From the NCBI GenBank assembly GCA_021851985.1, contig JAJZOS010000025.1, forward strand, positions 1-9,486: a stretch of 9,486 nt of DNA. The letters run 5' to 3'. Of this stretch, positions 2,055-9,300 are shown piece by piece. The notes beneath the pieces are model-generated. The model worked only from the letters and a program-made list of their open reading frames with translations. It did no database searches and had not been told where the DNA came from. Within the stretch, counting starts at the first letter, position 1; every line of letters starts with the position of its first letter. This DNA is from Microcaldota archaeon. Lineage in GTDB: Archaea; Micrarchaeota; Micrarchaeia; Micrarchaeales; CABMGC01. Made by a program: the position numbers and the translations under genes.

Positions 2055-5000
2055 ATGTCCAGATTGAGATACATATTTATTTTATTATCAATATTTTTAA
2101 TTTTCCTGCTTGAAAACCAGGTTTTTGCCGTCTCTTGCCTCAATTCGCCACCTTCAGGTGCAACATACTGCATCCCATTCGGTGTAAACAACATCCAAAC
2201 CTCTTCCATTGGCTCAAATACGCAGATAATGCTTGGCACAACAAGCACTGGTGCTTTCATAGGCCTTAATACGCTCACCTTTTCAGCGTCATGCGGCGGC
2301 TCTCAATGCTTCAATAACCAACTAAGTAACTTTGCAGTTTACAATACAGTTTCAGGGCAAATATCCTTCAATACTATATGGATCGAAGCATACAATGCCT
2401 TCAATGAGATGCAGTCAAACGGGCTTACCTCCAATGCCCTTATATGGTTTAAGATACCTGACAACGTACCTGCAAGCACAAACGATACAAACTGGGCATT
2501 GGCTATATATCCGTTAAGCACAAACAACATTGATAAAAGAACGCTGGGTCTTGCGCCTCAGATCTACTGCGCAGGATCTGGATGCGCAACTTCATATTAT
2601 GGCGAAGCAGACAATGGGAATTCGATATTCGATTTCTACGACAATTTCACAGGAACATCAAGCCCTAATTGGATAGATTCTGACGGTTCAGATCCCGGTG
2701 CGCATATAACGCTTACTACGAATAACGGATTTACCTGGAATACTCTTGCCGGCACAACCTTATTTTTCAATATTTTCAATAACGAATATACAGTACCATA
2801 CAATGAATTTATTGATTCCTATATATCTTCAAATGCGCAAATACCTGGTGGATCCAATGCTGCTGGATTTGGGGTCTTCAACACTCCGTACAGTGGAACA
2901 CCAGCAGGTTCAAATACGCTCATGTTTCAAATGTTGATATCTACAAGTGCGGGCGTCAGGGTATACATAGCAAATCCTTTTACATTAGGTAGCTGCAGCT
3001 GCAATATAAATCCAGATACTCGGTATGTTATTTCGGGATTATTCGACCCATCATCTGCAACAGTATATAAAAATTATACACTTGAAAAAACTACAACTAT
3101 GCCTTCAAGTATAGTTCCTAATTCAATAATGATTAGTGCCTTTCAAAGCGGTTCAAATACTCAAAATGCGATGTATCAATGGATAAGAACTAGAACCAAC
3201 CCTCCAAATGGCGTATATCCTATAGTAAATTTCGGCTCTGCACATGCTGTTGTTGCACTATCCGTTTCTATTGCCCCTTCTTCAGCAACGACACTAGATG
3301 CGGGCCAGAGCGTCACATTCGCAGCATTAGCAATTGGCGGCACAGGATCCTACACTACATACAATTTCATAGTATTCAACAGCATAACTAATGTCATAAT
3401 AGCCAACTCTCTCCAGACATCAAATTCATTCATATTCACTTCGAACTCAAACATCGTAGGCAACACCATCGAGGCGAACGTAATAGTTACGGATAGCGCC
3501 TCTCATAATGCAAATTCTCTAAATACCGGCCAGATAACTATAAACCCTGCATTTACTGTTTCTATAACCCCTTCATCTACTGCAGTGATCGATGCAGGCC
3601 AGGACGTTGAATTCGCAGCATTAGCAACCGGAGGAAGCAGTTCATATACAACTTACAACTTCATAGTATTCAACTCGATAACGAATACGATAATTGCCAA
3701 TTCGCTTCAGGCTTCAAATACCTTTACATTCGCATCAAATTCAAATATCGTAGGCAATACCCTCAAGGCGAATGTAATAGTTACTGACAGCGCATCAAGC
3801 ACTGCAAACTCCATAAATTCTGCATTAATATCTGTGAATTCACTTCCTTCAGTTTCAATATTTCCTTCAAACATACTTGCAGATTCTGGCCAGATTGCCA
3901 CATTCACGATTACGGCAACGGGGGGCACCGGACCTTTTGCAGTAGAGCTCTACAACATAACTGGCGCAGCAGCAGTATACAACGCAATAATAACAAACTC
4001 CAGCGGTGCATTGAATTCGTGGGCTGCTTCAAACGATTATCCTGCCAACACCTACTCACAGGCGTGCAGCTATTATTCCGATTTTGTATACTGCGTGGGC
4101 GGATATGCTAAATACGGCGGAACAAGCTTCATAACTGCAAATACTTATTCAACACAGGTATTCTCTGACGCTCTAGGTTCATGGACTGGCCAGTCTCACT
4201 ATCCGTTTGCCGTTTACCTGTCATCCTGCCCGTCATACAGTGGATACATCTATTGCATTGGTGGCTATAATTCCTTATCTTCATCTGCGACTAACATAAT
4301 ATATTCTGCGCAATTGTCTTCAGGAAGCTTCGGCACCTGGAATGCACAGCCAAACTACCCAATTCCAATTCAAGCCCAGAGCTGCAATATATATTCTGGA
4401 TACATCTACTGCGTAGGAGGATATGATATCTCATATGAAAATGCAGTATACTCTGCTCCAGTATCAAACGGAATAATTGGTTCATGGACACAACAGAGCA
4501 ATTATCCGCTTAGTTCTGAATATACCTCATGCTCTGTCAAAAATGCGTATATCTACTGTATTGGAGGCTATGGTACTGGTTTATTTAAATCTACATACTC
4601 AGCACCAATATCAGGTGGCATTGTAGGGACATGGACACAGCAGCCTAACTATCCAAATGAAATTACGGGTCTTTCTTGCATACCATCAAATTCTTATATA
4701 TACTGCTTAGGGGGCAAAGCTGTTAGTGTTGACATATCCTCAAATGCTGTATACTCTGCTTCAATATCGAGTGGAACAATAGGTTCATGGATGCCACAAT
4801 CAAATTATCCAGCTAATGTTGATTCCCAGCAGTGTATTAGTCCATCGAGTTACTATAGTAGTTATATCTATTGCTTTGGCGGTGAGCAATCAGATCCGCA
4901 ACTTATTTATAATTATACATTCTCAACTACAATGCTTAATTCAAATACCCTATCTATAAATGCGCTCGCAGTTAATGGTAACACATTCGCATTCAATGCA

Positions 5001-7559
5001 ATATTCACAGATGAAGGCACATCTCCATATTTTGTGCCTTCAAGCCAGAACTCGCTTTCACATCTAAGTATAAATCCTGCATTATCAGCAGAACCGATAT
5101 TCACAACCAATTACATAAAGATAGATACTGGCCAGTCAATTACCCTTTCATCAAGTCTATCAAACGGCTTCGCTCCGTATTTTTATCAGTGGTATTCAGG
5201 CAATTCCACAACATGTTCATCAAATATACTAAGCGTCGGAAACCTATCGTCTACCCTATCTGTTACTCCTTATCATGACATATCCTATTGTTATAAATCA
5301 ACAGACAATGCGTCTGAGCCTGAAATAGTATATTCCGCAACAAACGAAGTTGTTGTTAATTCAAGGCCTTCAATTTCTATAATAACTTCGAATGTGCTGT
5401 ATGGACAAATAGCAACAGTCAATGCACTTCTATCTGGAGGTACAGGATCTCTATTTAATTTTAAATTCTATAATGTTTCATCCGGAAGCATTGAGTCAAG
5501 CGGTTCAATAACCTACACCGAAACAAATACAATTGGTACTGGCGCACTTGGCAACTTCATGAATGCAACTGCATATCCATTTCCGATACAAGCGCAGGGC
5601 TGCATTACATACAATTATTACATATACTGTGTGGCAGGATATTCATATCAGACTAGCTTGATAAAATATCTTACTAATACTGTATATTCCGCGCAGATTC
5701 AGAATGGCACAGTAAGTGCATGGACGCAACAACTGAATTATCCTTCAAATGTCTATGATCATCAATGTACTGGATATTCCGGTTATATATATTGTATTGG
5801 AGGAATAAACGATCTCTCTACAGCGTCTGTAGTAAATTCTGTATTCTCTGCCTCAATTTCCGGAGGCACAGTAGGATCATGGGTATTGCAAGGCAACTAT
5901 CCCATGGAAATAGGGCAACAACAATGTGAAGCATATTCTGGTTATATATACTGCGTCGGCGGGGCCTCTGCCGGAAGTAATAATGAAGTATTCAATTCTG
6001 TATACTCTGCATCAATTTCCGGCGGCACGGTTGGTTCATGGGTGCAGCAGGGCAATTATCCTGTGCCTGACGCTGACCACACTTGCACCATATACTCTGG
6101 CTATATCTACTGTCTTGGGGGGCAGTCAGCAATCCTGAATTCACGCTACACAAGTGTATATTCTGCTCCTGTATCTGGAGGCACTGTAGGAACATGGACA
6201 TCGGAAACAAGCTATCCGGTCGGACTTGATGGCATGTCGTGCAATGCTTATAATGGCAATATTTACTGTATAGGCGGAGATCCTGCAAACAACATAAGGG
6301 AGCAGTATATCTACAGTGCACCTATATCAAGCGGCACCGTGGGTTCATGGTCAATAGTGCAAAACTATAATTTCGGAGTTGGCGGTACATCATGTAATGC
6401 CTATGGCGGTTATATTTACTGCGTCGGCGGATTCGATCAGCCATTAGTACATGACACTTATGCAGTATATTCGTCGCAGATAGTGCCCAGCATCAATGTA
6501 TACTATAATTTTTCTGCAGAATCCACAACCAATATTCAATTCAATGCAATTGCAACTGATGAAGGAACGTATACGCCACTTTTGTTTGCATCAGCTACAA
6601 ACACTGTTGTAATAGCTAAGAACGACCTTCTTTCTAATACAGTATCTAATAATCCATCTGCAGTGGGTTTCTATACTCCAGTGAACATCACGTTCACAGG
6701 CACTCCGACGATAAACAACCAGAGCGCGTGGTCGCTTTATGTTGATGGCACATTTTTCGGAAAAACAGATTCAACAATTTACTGGACGGAGCAGGGCTCT
6801 CCTGGAACTTACTCATTCACATTTACAAATCCTGGAAATGCTAATTACACTTCGTCATCGCTCACATCAACGCTTAAAGTCGGATCTCTCGGCACAGGAG
6901 GATCCTCGGTGTCCTCTTCATCTCTGCCTCCTTCAACTACAACAACATCAACAGTGGTAACCACAGTGCCCCCGCCAATTTTGCTGAATGAGACAGTAAA
7001 TTTGATACATGGGTCATCGCAGCAGATAAGCTTCAGCAACACTGGGGTCATGATTGAGCTTGTATCGAACACCTTCTCAAATTCAACAGCAAAATTGCTT
7101 GCAATTAATGTAACTGCATTCTCCCCTAATGCGCCCATAGGCTTCATAAAGCTTTCAGCTACGAACATCACGTCCAATACGACCAAAGTGAATAACATAA
7201 ATGTAAGATACAGATATCCATGCAGCATCCCCGCAGCAAACATAAGGCCATTCATACTCAAGAATGGAATATGGAATCCAATATCTCTATTCATAGTGAA
7301 TGCAACTTCATGCATAGTCTCATTCAGCATGCCTGCGGATCCTGTTGTGGCGGTAATGGCGCAGAACCAGACTGCATCAAAAACGCCTTCAAATGCCTCA
7401 TCTGTATCGACCATGCTTCCTACAACAGCAACTGCCGCTGCTCAGCAGGTTCCATCTTCAACATCGAATATATTGCTTATCTCAATAATCATAATCATCA
7501 TAATAATTATAGCAGTCCTGTACATGCTTAAAAGCAGAAGGTCAAAGTTTGGGTCATAA
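2055..7559 (+). CDS. Giant membrane-anchored surface protein with Ig-like modules and two kelch-like propellers
   Basis: 1834 residues. In order: signal peptide (1-25, cleavage after VFA); a DUF2341-like region (about 85-195) followed by a lectin-like beta region (about 196-395; NGNSIFDFYDNFTG junction); Ig/PKD-like modules starting at about 399, 500 and 598 (98-residue period); kelch-like propeller 1 (653-956); the rest of an Ig module to about 1009; an Ig-like module (1010-1103); part of another (1105-1163); propeller 2 (1164-1476); the rest of that module to about 1521; a further Ig-like module (1522-1608); a Ser/Thr/Pro stalk (1610-1641); a domain resembling PGF-pre-PGF (about 1642-1768); a second polar linker; a Leu/Ile-rich membrane span with nine Ile in a row (1805-1825); and a basic tail KSRRSK. 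The bulk should face outside. Many NxS/T sequons suggest heavy glycosylation. A role in adhesion, ligand binding or the S-layer is inferred; the ligand is unknown. The gene is visibly more AT-rich than dnaG. Family names come from recalled motifs, not from a search. Confidence 0.9.
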   Translation: MSRLRYIFILLSIFLIFLLENQVFAVSCLNSPPSGATYCIPFGVNNIQTSSIGSNTQIMLGTTSTGAFIGLNTLTFSASCGGSQCFNNQLSNFAVYNTVSGQISFNTIWIEAYNAFNEMQSNGLTSNALIWFKIPDNVPASTNDTNWALAIYPLSTNNIDKRTLGLAPQIYCAGSGCATSYYGEADNGNSIFDFYDNFTGTSSPNWIDSDGSDPGAHITLTTNNGFTWNTLAGTTLFFNIFNNEYTVPYNEFIDSYISSNAQIPGGSNAAGFGVFNTPYSGTPAGSNTLMFQMLISTSAGVRVYIANPFTLGSCSCNINPDTRYVISGLFDPSSATVYKNYTLEKTTTMPSSIVPNSIMISAFQSGSNTQNAMYQWIRTRTNPPNGVYPIVNFGSAHAVVALSVSIAPSSATTLDAGQSVTFAALAIGGTGSYTTYNFIVFNSITNVIIANSLQTSNSFIFTSNSNIVGNTIEANVIVTDSASHNANSLNTGQITINPAFTVSITPSSTAVIDAGQDVEFAALATGGSSSYTTYNFIVFNSITNTIIANSLQASNTFTFASNSNIVGNTLKANVIVTDSASSTANSINSALISVNSLPSVSIFPSNILADSGQIATFTITATGGTGPFAVELYNITGAAAVYNAIITNSSGALNSWAASNDYPANTYSQACSYYSDFVYCVGGYAKYGGTSFITANTYSTQVFSDALGSWTGQSHYPFAVYLSSCPSYSGYIYCIGGYNSLSSSATNIIYSAQLSSGSFGTWNAQPNYPIPIQAQSCNIYSGYIYCVGGYDISYENAVYSAPVSNGIIGSWTQQSNYPLSSEYTSCSVKNAYIYCIGGYGTGLFKSTYSAPISGGIVGTWTQQPNYPNEITGLSCIPSNSYIYCLGGKAVSVDISSNAVYSASISSGTIGSWMPQSNYPANVDSQQCISPSSYYSSYIYCFGGEQSDPQLIYNYTFSTTMLNSNTLSINALAVNGNTFAFNAIFTDEGTSPYFVPSSQNSLSHLSINPALSAEPIFTTNYIKIDTGQSITLSSSLSNGFAPYFYQWYSGNSTTCSSNILSVGNLSSTLSVTPYHDISYCYKSTDNASEPEIVYSATNEVVVNSRPSISIITSNVLYGQIATVNALLSGGTGSLFNFKFYNVSSGSIESSGSITYTETNTIGTGALGNFMNATAYPFPIQAQGCITYNYYIYCVAGYSYQTSLIKYLTNTVYSAQIQNGTVSAWTQQLNYPSNVYDHQCTGYSGYIYCIGGINDLSTASVVNSVFSASISGGTVGSWVLQGNYPMEIGQQQCEAYSGYIYCVGGASAGSNNEVFNSVYSASISGGTVGSWVQQGNYPVPDADHTCTIYSGYIYCLGGQSAILNSRYTSVYSAPVSGGTVGTWTSETSYPVGLDGMSCNAYNGNIYCIGGDPANNIREQYIYSAPISSGTVGSWSIVQNYNFGVGGTSCNAYGGYIYCVGGFDQPLVHDTYAVYSSQIVPSINVYYNFSAESTTNIQFNAIATDEGTYTPLLFASATNTVVIAKNDLLSNTVSNNPSAVGFYTPVNITFTGTPTINNQSAWSLYVDGTFFGKTDSTIYWTEQGSPGTYSFTFTNPGNANYTSSSLTSTLKVGSLGTGGSSVSSSSLPPSTTTTSTVVTTVPPPILLNETVNLIHGSSQQISFSNTGVMIELVSNTFSNSTAKLLAINVTAFSPNAPIGFIKLSATNITSNTTKVNNINVRYRYPCSIPAANIRPFILKNGIWNPISLFIVNATSCIVSFSMPADPVVAVMAQNQTASKTPSNASSVSTMLPTTATAAAQQVPSSTSNILLISIIIIIIIIIAVLYMLKSRRSKFGS
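3249..3842 (+). repeat. Tandem 98-residue Ig/PKD-like repeats in the giant protein
   Basis: Two complete modules follow each other: VSIAPSSATTLDAGQ through TDSAS to ITINPA, then VSITPSSTAVIDAGQ through TDSAS to LISVNS. A third starts in the same way (VSIFPSN, then DSGQ, then GGTGPF). The anchoring valines fall at residues 404, 502 and 600, an exact 98-residue step. The first two share long stretches such as YNFIVFNSITN and SNIVGNT but differ at many silent positions, so the duplication is not fresh and the protein sequence has been kept by selection or homogenised in part. Confidence 0.85.
4011..4922 (+). repeat. Kelch-like propeller 1: six blades, each with a Cys pair
   Basis: Six repeats of about 50 residues with the pattern (G/N)(S/T)W..Q.NYP......(S/Q/A)C-x8-YC(V/I/L/F)GG, then a Tyr-containing strand (VYSA) before the next W. 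The double Gly, the Tyr and the Trp are the classic kelch landmarks. Each blade adds two cysteines, one directly before the GG motif and one nine residues earlier (13 in blade six, where the loop is longer). Six blades would close a propeller; disulfide bonding within blades is inferred. Confidence 0.88.
5544..6482 (+). repeat. Kelch-like propeller 2: six blades, each with a Cys pair
   Basis: Six further blades with the same pattern as propeller 1, including C-x8-C in all six and YC(V/I/L)GG in five; blade one has YCVAG. Blades two to four are close to each other (SGYIYC, SISGGTVGSW, QGNYP), which points to more recent blade duplication inside this propeller than in propeller 1. Confidence 0.88.
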
Positions 7560-7881: not shown

Positions 7882-9300
7882 ATGGCAAAAACTTATCTGG
7901 AAATAGTAAAATACATGGTCGAAGCGAAGTTTAACATAGAGGGGCTTGTGGACAAGCCGGACATAATAGGCGCCGTGTTTGGACAGACGGAAGGCCTTCT
8001 GGGCAGCGATCTCGACCTCAGGGAGCTGCAGAAGAACGGCAAGATAGGCAGGATAGAGATAGATGTGCAGCAGTCGTCAAACAGGACTGCAGGAAAGCTC
8101 TTCCTTCCTGCATCTTTGGACAAGGTCGAGACATGCATACTCGCAGCTGCAGTTGAGTCTGTGGACCGCGTAGGGCCATATGAGGCGCAGTTCAGCGTAG
8201 ACAAGGTCGAGGATACAAGGTCAGAGAAAAGGAGGAAGATACTCGTGAGGGCAAAGGAGCTTGTCAAGAAGATGCTTGATACCGGCATGCCGGACAGCAA
8301 GGAGTTATCAGAACTTGTGCAGTCGGATGTGAGGGCCAGCGAGATAACCACATATGGTCCGGAGCAGCTTTCAGCAGGGCCCGACATAGCAGCGAGCGAA
8401 GAGGTCATAATAGTTGAGGGAAGGGCAGACGTGCTAAACCTGCTAAAGAACGACATAGGATATTCGATAGCTGTTGGAGGCGCTGCAAGCACCATCCCAA
8501 AGACACTGATAGATCTGGCTACGCAGAAGGAAGCCACTCTGTTCGTGGATGGCGACAGGGGAGGCGACATGATAGCAAGATCCATACTCAACGTCGCAGA
8601 GATTGACTTCATAGCCAAGGCTCCTGATGGAAAAGAGGTTGAGGATCTTACGAGGAAGGAGATAATAAAGTCTCTCAGGACCAGGATACCTATAGACCAG
8701 TACAGGGTGATAGGATCCAGCCAGCCCGGCGTCCAGAGATTCCAGAGGCAACAGAGGGAGCAACAGCCGCCTGCAAGGAATGACTCGTTCAGGGAGCAGA
8801 GGCAACAGCTTTCTGCACAGCAGCCGGCACAACAGCCGGCACCGCAGCCTCAGGCAAGGCAGGCACAGCCTAAAGTAAGCACTGTCATGGAAAAGGAAGC
8901 ACCGCAATCCGATACAACAGCAATACCTGGAATAGATGCTGCTGATTTCGAGCCGGCGTCGAAGCTCGGCAAGGAGGCAAAAACCGATTCTCCCGTACTG
9001 CAGGCTCAGGTATTCTCGCAGCTGTCAATCAGTCTGGACGAGCTTTCAGGTACGCTAAGGTCGAGGCTTTACGACAATGCAGCAAACGTGGTAAAGGAGG
9101 TTCCGATAAGGGAGCTTCTCTCCGAGATAGAAGCATCAGAAGGCATATATGCTATAGTGCTTGACGGAGTGATAACGCAGAGGCTTGTAGAGCTCTCGCT
9201 CCAAAAAGGAGTAAAGGCAGTATACGGGATAAAGGCCAATCCGCTTACAAGGAAGTTCCACGACATAACGCTTTATACAAAGGAACAGGGCAAGCTTTAG
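7882..9300 (+). CDS. dnaG: Archaeal DnaG primase-like protein (TOPRIM domain)
   Basis: 472 residues. In archaea this protein has a TOPRIM fold, can make short RNA primers in vitro, and is a stable partner of the RNA-degrading exosome through Csl4. The N-terminus carries the family block NIEGLVDKPDIIGAVFGQTE (18-37) followed by GSDLDLRELQ. The TOPRIM domain (about 172-258) has its glutamate in VEGRADV (E179) and its acidic pair in FVDGDRGGD (D223, D225), so the catalytic set is intact. Residues 281-335 are a Gln/Pro/Arg-rich low-complexity linker. The C-terminal domain (about 370-472) has the typical YAIVLDGVITQRLVELS and YGIKANPL blocks. The start is fixed by the family N-terminus and by a GGTG (7872-7875) 6 bases upstream. 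It stands apart from the giant gene and probably has its own promoter. Confidence 0.95.
   Translation: MAKTYLEIVKYMVEAKFNIEGLVDKPDIIGAVFGQTEGLLGSDLDLRELQKNGKIGRIEIDVQQSSNRTAGKLFLPASLDKVETCILAAAVESVDRVGPYEAQFSVDKVEDTRSEKRRKILVRAKELVKKMLDTGMPDSKELSELVQSDVRASEITTYGPEQLSAGPDIAASEEVIIVEGRADVLNLLKNDIGYSIAVGGAASTIPKTLIDLATQKEATLFVDGDRGGDMIARSILNVAEIDFIAKAPDGKEVEDLTRKEIIKSLRTRIPIDQYRVIGSSQPGVQRFQRQQREQQPPARNDSFREQRQQLSAQQPAQQPAPQPQARQAQPKVSTVMEKEAPQSDTTAIPGIDAADFEPASKLGKEAKTDSPVLQAQVFSQLSISLDELSGTLRSRLYDNAANVVKEVPIRELLSEIEASEGIYAIVLDGVITQRLVELSLQKGVKAVYGIKANPLTRKFHDITLYTKEQGKL

Follow-up and report, generated by a model that had tools for sequence, protein, structure and literature searches.

Two kelch propellers predicted to be nested within Ig-like modules of a Micrarchaeota-type surface protein

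One gene in the window, by which we mean the whole 9,486-nucleotide stretch of DNA that was analysed, raises the question of whether two kelch-like propellers interrupt Ig-like modules of a surface protein or stand in line between them. The open reading frame (positions 2055..7559, + strand) is open throughout and encodes a protein of 1834 residues; the span of interest, 3849-6617, corresponds to residues 599-1521. Judged by eye, the N-terminus is signal-peptide-like, the body is rich in Ser, Thr and Asn, and residues ~1806-1826 are hydrophobic and followed by a basic tail. The source is a draft genome of 33 contigs and 0.88 Mb that contains paralogs of this protein, and its relatives in the protein database bear the name Candidatus Micrarchaeota. 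The neighbouring genes encode the archaeal Holliday junction resolvase Hjc (1267-1743, - strand) and DnaG (7882-9300, + strand), and the surface gene is thus located among core genes. The dnaG gene has an internal tandem repeat at 8815-8849 (period 12, 2.9 copies) encoding a Gln/Pro/Ala-rich stretch. In a Pfam search with the 1834-residue protein, the kelch family PF24681 matched in four stretches (E 1.5e-31) and both PF13964 and PF01344 exceeded their cut-offs. The Ig signal was weak (Ig_3, E 0.0012, below cut-off), and neither a PKD domain nor an RTX family was among the six Pfam families found at E up to 0.1.

We describe the Ig-like modules with a profile of 92 positions, for which paralogs and relatives supplied 176 uninterrupted modules. 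The seeds of its first iteration included modules 1 and 2 of the window protein and none of its halves, and the final set was made without the window protein. Profile match coordinates refer to P0001, a near-identical protein in the database that is of equal length, lies on a different contig and differs at 16 of 1834 residues. All features of the protein given here lie on the + strand. Module 1 (3261..3551, residues ~403-499) and module 2 (3552..3845, residues ~500-597) are complete, with profile matches at 408-497 (E 1.3e-21) and 507-595 (E 2e-19). Module 3 comes in two parts. Its first half (3849..3959, residues 599-635; match 604-668 to model positions 2-67, E 5e-10) has predicted strands at 599-604, 614-622 and 628-634, which we read as A, B and C, and its second half (4935..5081, residues 961-1009; match 953-1000 to model positions 43-88, E 3e-4) has predicted strands at 965-971, 978-986 and 993-995 plus 999-1001, read as E, F and G. 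Module 4 (5082..5363, residues ~1010-1103) is uninterrupted and lies between the two nested units with a nearly complete profile match (1022-1102 to model positions 6-92, E 1.6e-14). Module 5 is again in two parts. The first half (5364..5537, residues ~1104-1161; match 1112-1160 to model positions 5-53, E 2e-3) has predicted strands at 1109-1114, 1119-1124 and 1133-1144, read as A, B and C, and an extra strand at 1153-1160; the second half (6492..6620, residues 1480-1522; match 1470-1520 to model positions 39-91, E 9e-4) has predicted strands at 1480-1487, 1492-1503 and 1510-1512 plus 1516-1520, read as E, F and G. When the flanks are aligned to the complete-module profile, both post-propeller segments match the second half of the model, as the earlier note had proposed.

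Between the halves of module 3 lies kelch propeller 1 (3960..4934, residues ~636-960, structure match ~636-937), and between those of module 5 lies kelch propeller 2 (5538..6491), for which our boundaries, residues ~1162-1479, agree with the earlier note. Each has six blades, and in the models each forms a closed ring of four-stranded blades as in known kelch structures. Propeller 1 had been thought to begin at residue 653; from the structure match it probably begins at ~636 instead. The segment YNYTFSTT (952-959), which had been assigned to the Ig module, sits in a block with a pLDDT of 39 and aligns by eye with the last kelch strand of relatives, and both observations weigh against the Ig assignment. 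The Ig half after propeller 1 restarts near 961-965. Every blade of both propellers contains a pair of cysteines (12 pairs, residues 671-940 and 1183-1456) spaced 9 residues apart, or 13 in the last blade of propeller 1. A C-x7-10-C pair was found in 703 of 742 near-full blade matches of the survey set described below, the window's included, and one disulfide staple per kelch blade is likely.

If the flanks of each propeller belong to one module, they should do better together than chance partners do. Each of the four Ig halves outscored its shuffles (0 of 1000 as good). When rejoined with linkers trimmed, the flanks of unit 1 scored 67.9 bits against 50.7 for the best of 200 shuffled suffixes, and those of unit 2 scored 42.1 against 32.5, with trims scanned equally for real and shuffled joins (63 for unit 1, 49 for unit 2). 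The untrimmed join of unit 1 was no better than controls, being equalled by 130 of 1000 shuffles and 49 of 214 unrelated windows, because linker residues cause the halves to overlap; for the untrimmed join of unit 2, just 1 of 1000 shuffles and 0 of 225 unrelated windows were as good.

Both the propeller folds and the Ig strands are model predictions. AlphaFold2 modelled both propellers confidently and the Ig flanks with moderate confidence, with strands predicted on either side. In ten-residue blocks, pLDDT was 56-79 before the propeller and 55-72 after it in unit 1, and 50-61 before (39 in the first ten residues) and 65-71 after in unit 2. Because the flanks are only moderately confident, we infer, rather than read from the models, that the two halves close into one sandwich. 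The alignments used for folding had 49 rows each, of which 11 carried Ig flanks and 38 were taken from 63 listed kelch stretches; nested units known solely as database proteins were left out. Alignment A3, made of uncut modules and nested units, had the single long gap that was expected, but it misplaced strand E of the uncut modules across the gap, and since this puts strand E on the wrong side A3 was excluded from folding. The matches listed by Foldseek and VIA-align were to propellers only.

Related sequences contain the host module without a propeller. In five paralogs from the same genome, the position of propeller 2 is taken by an uncut module, and once rejoined, the flanks of each unit match a single uncut module of L080, a relative of 3797 residues (E 1.3e-16 for unit 1 and 1.8e-10 for unit 2). 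The C-terminal region of the window protein (6621..7556) is common to four of these five paralogs: two match from residue 1492 or 1493 to the end (74% and 77% identity), and two more match part of the region (74% and 69% identity). The earlier note had claimed that both propellers are inserted in Ig modules of a common type and at a common point. The complementary profile halves, the shuffle controls and the uncut copies support this claim well, and in terms of sequence the Ig halves are shown to be complementary parts of one module family of which uncut copies exist.

Such a layout could in principle come from two genes or repeats misjoined during metagenome assembly, since the draft genome is in 33 pieces and repeats are common in this protein family. 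However, the reading frame is open across the whole ORF, P0001 has the same layout on its different contig, and the layout recurs in other genomes and in database proteins. We consider an assembly artefact to be extremely improbable.

We wished to determine how widespread this arrangement is and surveyed 942 ORFs and proteins, a non-random sample picked by kelch or Ig matches. Classified by their flanks, 196 kelch clusters comprised 17 that were nested (window unit 2 being counted twice, from two copies), 8 provisionally called tandem, in which the neighbouring Ig modules are complete or nearly so, 3 with a right half only, 2 with a left half only and 166 without an Ig match. Because the method also yields the 8 tandem rows, it does not force a nested answer. 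Of the right-half rows, two come from window unit 1 and the third from a unit of L062; in these a first-half match exists but overlaps the propeller or exceeds the length allowed by the rule. With window unit 1 and the unit of L062 included, and with unit 2 of the window counted once, the total is 18 nested kelch units. At 70% identity 15 of them are distinct, 2 in the window protein and 13 elsewhere. For this total and for the counts of half pairs, the window protein was represented by P0001 and its near-identical locus copy L028 was dropped.

The order of the halves is informative about the alternative that nothing is nested, namely that the propellers stand between degenerate or shortened Ig modules and that the flanks are truncated remnants folding alone or with a neighbour. 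Among 111 neighbouring Ig matches lying 60-700 residues apart, a first half was followed by a second half in 20 and the reversed order occurred in none; in a smaller set with gaps of 120-450 the figures were 18 and 0 of 51. Of the 20 pairs, 17 span kelch and 3 span other inserts; two belong to the window protein, and three are near-copies of other rows. One more of the 20, in L270, is too weak to trust (E 5e-3 and 0.4, around an insert without a Pfam match) and was given no weight. The family does have propellers between complete Ig modules, as seen in the 8 tandem rows and in 34 pairs of complete Ig matches over kelch or YVTN propellers, and the modest confidence of the modelled flanks would also fit an in-line arrangement. 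Against this, the half that is missing on one side of each propeller is present on its other side, the order of halves is never reversed with the Ig profile, and the trimmed, rejoined flanks fit one uncut module better than 200 shuffles do. An arrangement without nesting thus appears improbable.

Across the order to which the window belongs, a nested-unit profile matched at E 1e-20 or better in at least 82 of 164 genomes, mostly via its kelch part, and the Ig module was found at E 1e-6 or better in at least 121 of 164. Matches spanning the full nested profile (start at or before position 10 and end at or after position 410 of 420, with some candidates per genome scored) occurred at at least 12 places in at least 5 of the 164 genomes, the window's own included. 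Nesting is a minority arrangement both among kelch clusters and among genomes of the order. In two relatives (G025:C5 and G010:C13) kelch matches cross stop codons, and these may be decaying copies.

Kelch propellers are not the only domains found in such a cut. In paralogs from the same genome, a YVTN-type propeller follows the strand-C segment of an N-terminal Ig module, with the second half of the module behind it. These inserts match several Pfam propeller families, and by eye the YVTN cut in this related host module corresponds to the point after strand C. Four uncut copies of that host, including one from the source genome, were used to build a second profile. In L023 and L024 of the source genome and in L063 and L223 of relatives, this profile matched in two pieces, one on either side of the propeller. 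It also split around kelch propellers, in P0036 (2-43 and 48-121) and in L251 (2-46 and only 87-123); the second half in P0036 is weak with the Ig profile (E 0.5) but reaches 3e-13 with the YVTN-host profile. In total 6 prefix/suffix pairs were obtained with this profile; the single pair in reversed order, in L223, joined the end of a split module to a partial match further along. L022 and L026 miss the strict prefix/suffix rule because the profile matches extend into the propeller, though the cut is plain by eye. Residues 70-201 of P0036, considered as an uncut host, proved to combine the last part of a YVTN propeller with a second half of a host module, and they are not counted as uncut.

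Two further kinds of insert were found. In a genome of the same genus, a LamG-type domain (PF13385, E 2.1e-13) lies in the cut, and the Ig profile is split around it into 3-47 and 46-92, the second part being weak (E 0.04). In L213 (contig C5 of G049), a 5658-residue protein of the same Ig modules, one module contains a 234-residue glycine-rich insert for which there was no Pfam match. Several variations were also observed. The LamG-type insert (L064:450-1450) terminates in a motif typical of the start of the domain; this motif usually opens LamG-type domains, and the insert may be circularly permuted. In L021:15609-18770, from the window's own genome, the host module is nearly complete apart from a YVTN propeller that appears to interrupt it close to its end; this would be a different insertion point, perhaps the F-G loop. 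In the relative G027, L063:4611-13151 appears to have two YVTN propellers in a single host-module gap of 627 residues, and L063 also has two nested kelch units.

We then considered how the two units of the window protein arose. The earlier note had taken them for a duplicated nested unit. This is plausible in that units 1 and 2 are mutually the most similar rows (47% identity); by tree distance the nearest to both is L081, a kelch protein that lacks an Ig match, and the tree does not group the two units as sisters. In a quick kelch tree of 116 propellers, 64 of 112 inner branches are open forks. The tree left out clusters of fewer than 5 blades or more than 345 residues and included 14 hand-picked database proteins without an Ig match, and its tandem label also covers the rows with a left half only. 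The smallest number of changes in the nested label that fits this tree is 8, and at least 2 of them are dictated by supported branches. A single insertion followed by copying of host and propeller as one block would account for the mutual similarity of units 1 and 2 and for the three units of G027, which form a supported group (96), whereas repeated insertion or exchange of heads would account for the label changes. Separate events are required in any case for the other inserts found at a similar cut (YVTN, LamG and glycine-rich). On balance we regard copying of one block as the less likely history, though a possible one.

Based on these results, the reading that we favour, with a probability of roughly 0.8, is that a Micrarchaeota-type archaeon secretes the protein and displays it, anchored in the membrane, as a surface protein whose stalk is a row of Ig-like modules, two of which hold a six-bladed kelch propeller in the loop after strand C. 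Strands A-B-C would precede the propeller and E-F-G follow it, and both halves would close one sandwich around it. The propeller would then project to the side of the stalk, two linkers fixing both of its ends at one face and leaving the opposite face free to bind, and the whole protein may act as an adhesin toward a partner cell or matrix. The Ig module would be a socket to which heads have been added, or in which they have been exchanged, more than once. A broader proposal, to which we give slightly less than even odds, is that one Ig-like family in the window's order is a general-purpose socket: unrelated heads (kelch propeller, YVTN propeller, LamG-type lectin fold and glycine-rich stretch) would plug into the loop after strand C, and lineages would swap heads while keeping the stalk, which would diversify the recognition of partner cells in archaea that are tiny and depend on a host.

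Split Ig folds and propeller-bearing surface proteins both have precedents. Archaeal PKD/propeller surface proteins have propellers and Ig/PKD-type modules in tandem and are not known to have them nested. The integrin beta hybrid domain is an Ig fold split by an inserted ligand-binding I-like domain; it resembles the window protein in this architecture, and the fold of the insert differs. The earlier note's statement that this architecture is not known from described proteins was too strong, since the available part of one report describes split Ig domains with a ligand-binding insert in RTX adhesins (PMC10865825), and that of another describes kelch and YVTN propellers alongside PKD-fold modules in a related archaeon (PMC5498576). 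In FrhA and MpIBP, as set out there, a sequence-discontinuous Ig-like domain holds the ligand-binding domain, which has both termini on one side and is turned outward from the stalk (PMC10865825). The window protein shares with these adhesins a split Ig-like domain with an inserted domain, its host likewise being discontinuous at the sequence level with a half on either side of the insert. Unlike in the RTX adhesins, the inserts are kelch propellers (YVTN in relatives), the stalk is archaeal and lacks an RTX match in Pfam, and sister host modules in the archaeal family bear different heads. As a split Ig domain holding a head is known from RTX adhesins, the nesting of propellers is a variation on a described principle.

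Closer in lineage, Mia14, an ARMAN-2-related archaeon, has surface-layer-type proteins with a PKD fold, kelch and YVTN propellers and CARDB-like modules; the available part of that report describes them as large and strain-specific and proposes a role in cell-cell contact (PMC5498576). The window protein similarly combines Ig-type modules and propellers in one large protein of a related archaeon. The domain kinds are the same, and that part of the Mia14 report does not mention nesting, whereas here the propellers interrupt Ig modules. Giant surface proteins of nanohaloarchaea, which are also DPANN archaea, have many Ig-like domains and two propellers and are proposed to bind host cells; in the part of that report available the propellers follow an Ig domain and nesting is not mentioned, whereas here they are nested (PMC10266531). 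In the open full-text literature searched, we recognised no description of a propeller nested in an archaeal Ig module or of head exchange. Relative to that literature, the propeller-in-Ig combination and the exchange of heads are what we have not seen before.

To our knowledge, how DPANN archaea recognise and hold host cells is an open question. Split Ig domains easily escape ordinary profile searches, and related proteins with other heads at a similar spot suggest a modular, sideways display of binding heads. If the reading favoured here is true, a socket with exchangeable heads would provide concrete and testable candidate recognition domains that are predictable from sequence, and it would suggest that archaea and bacteria separately reached the outward display of heads from split Ig domains.
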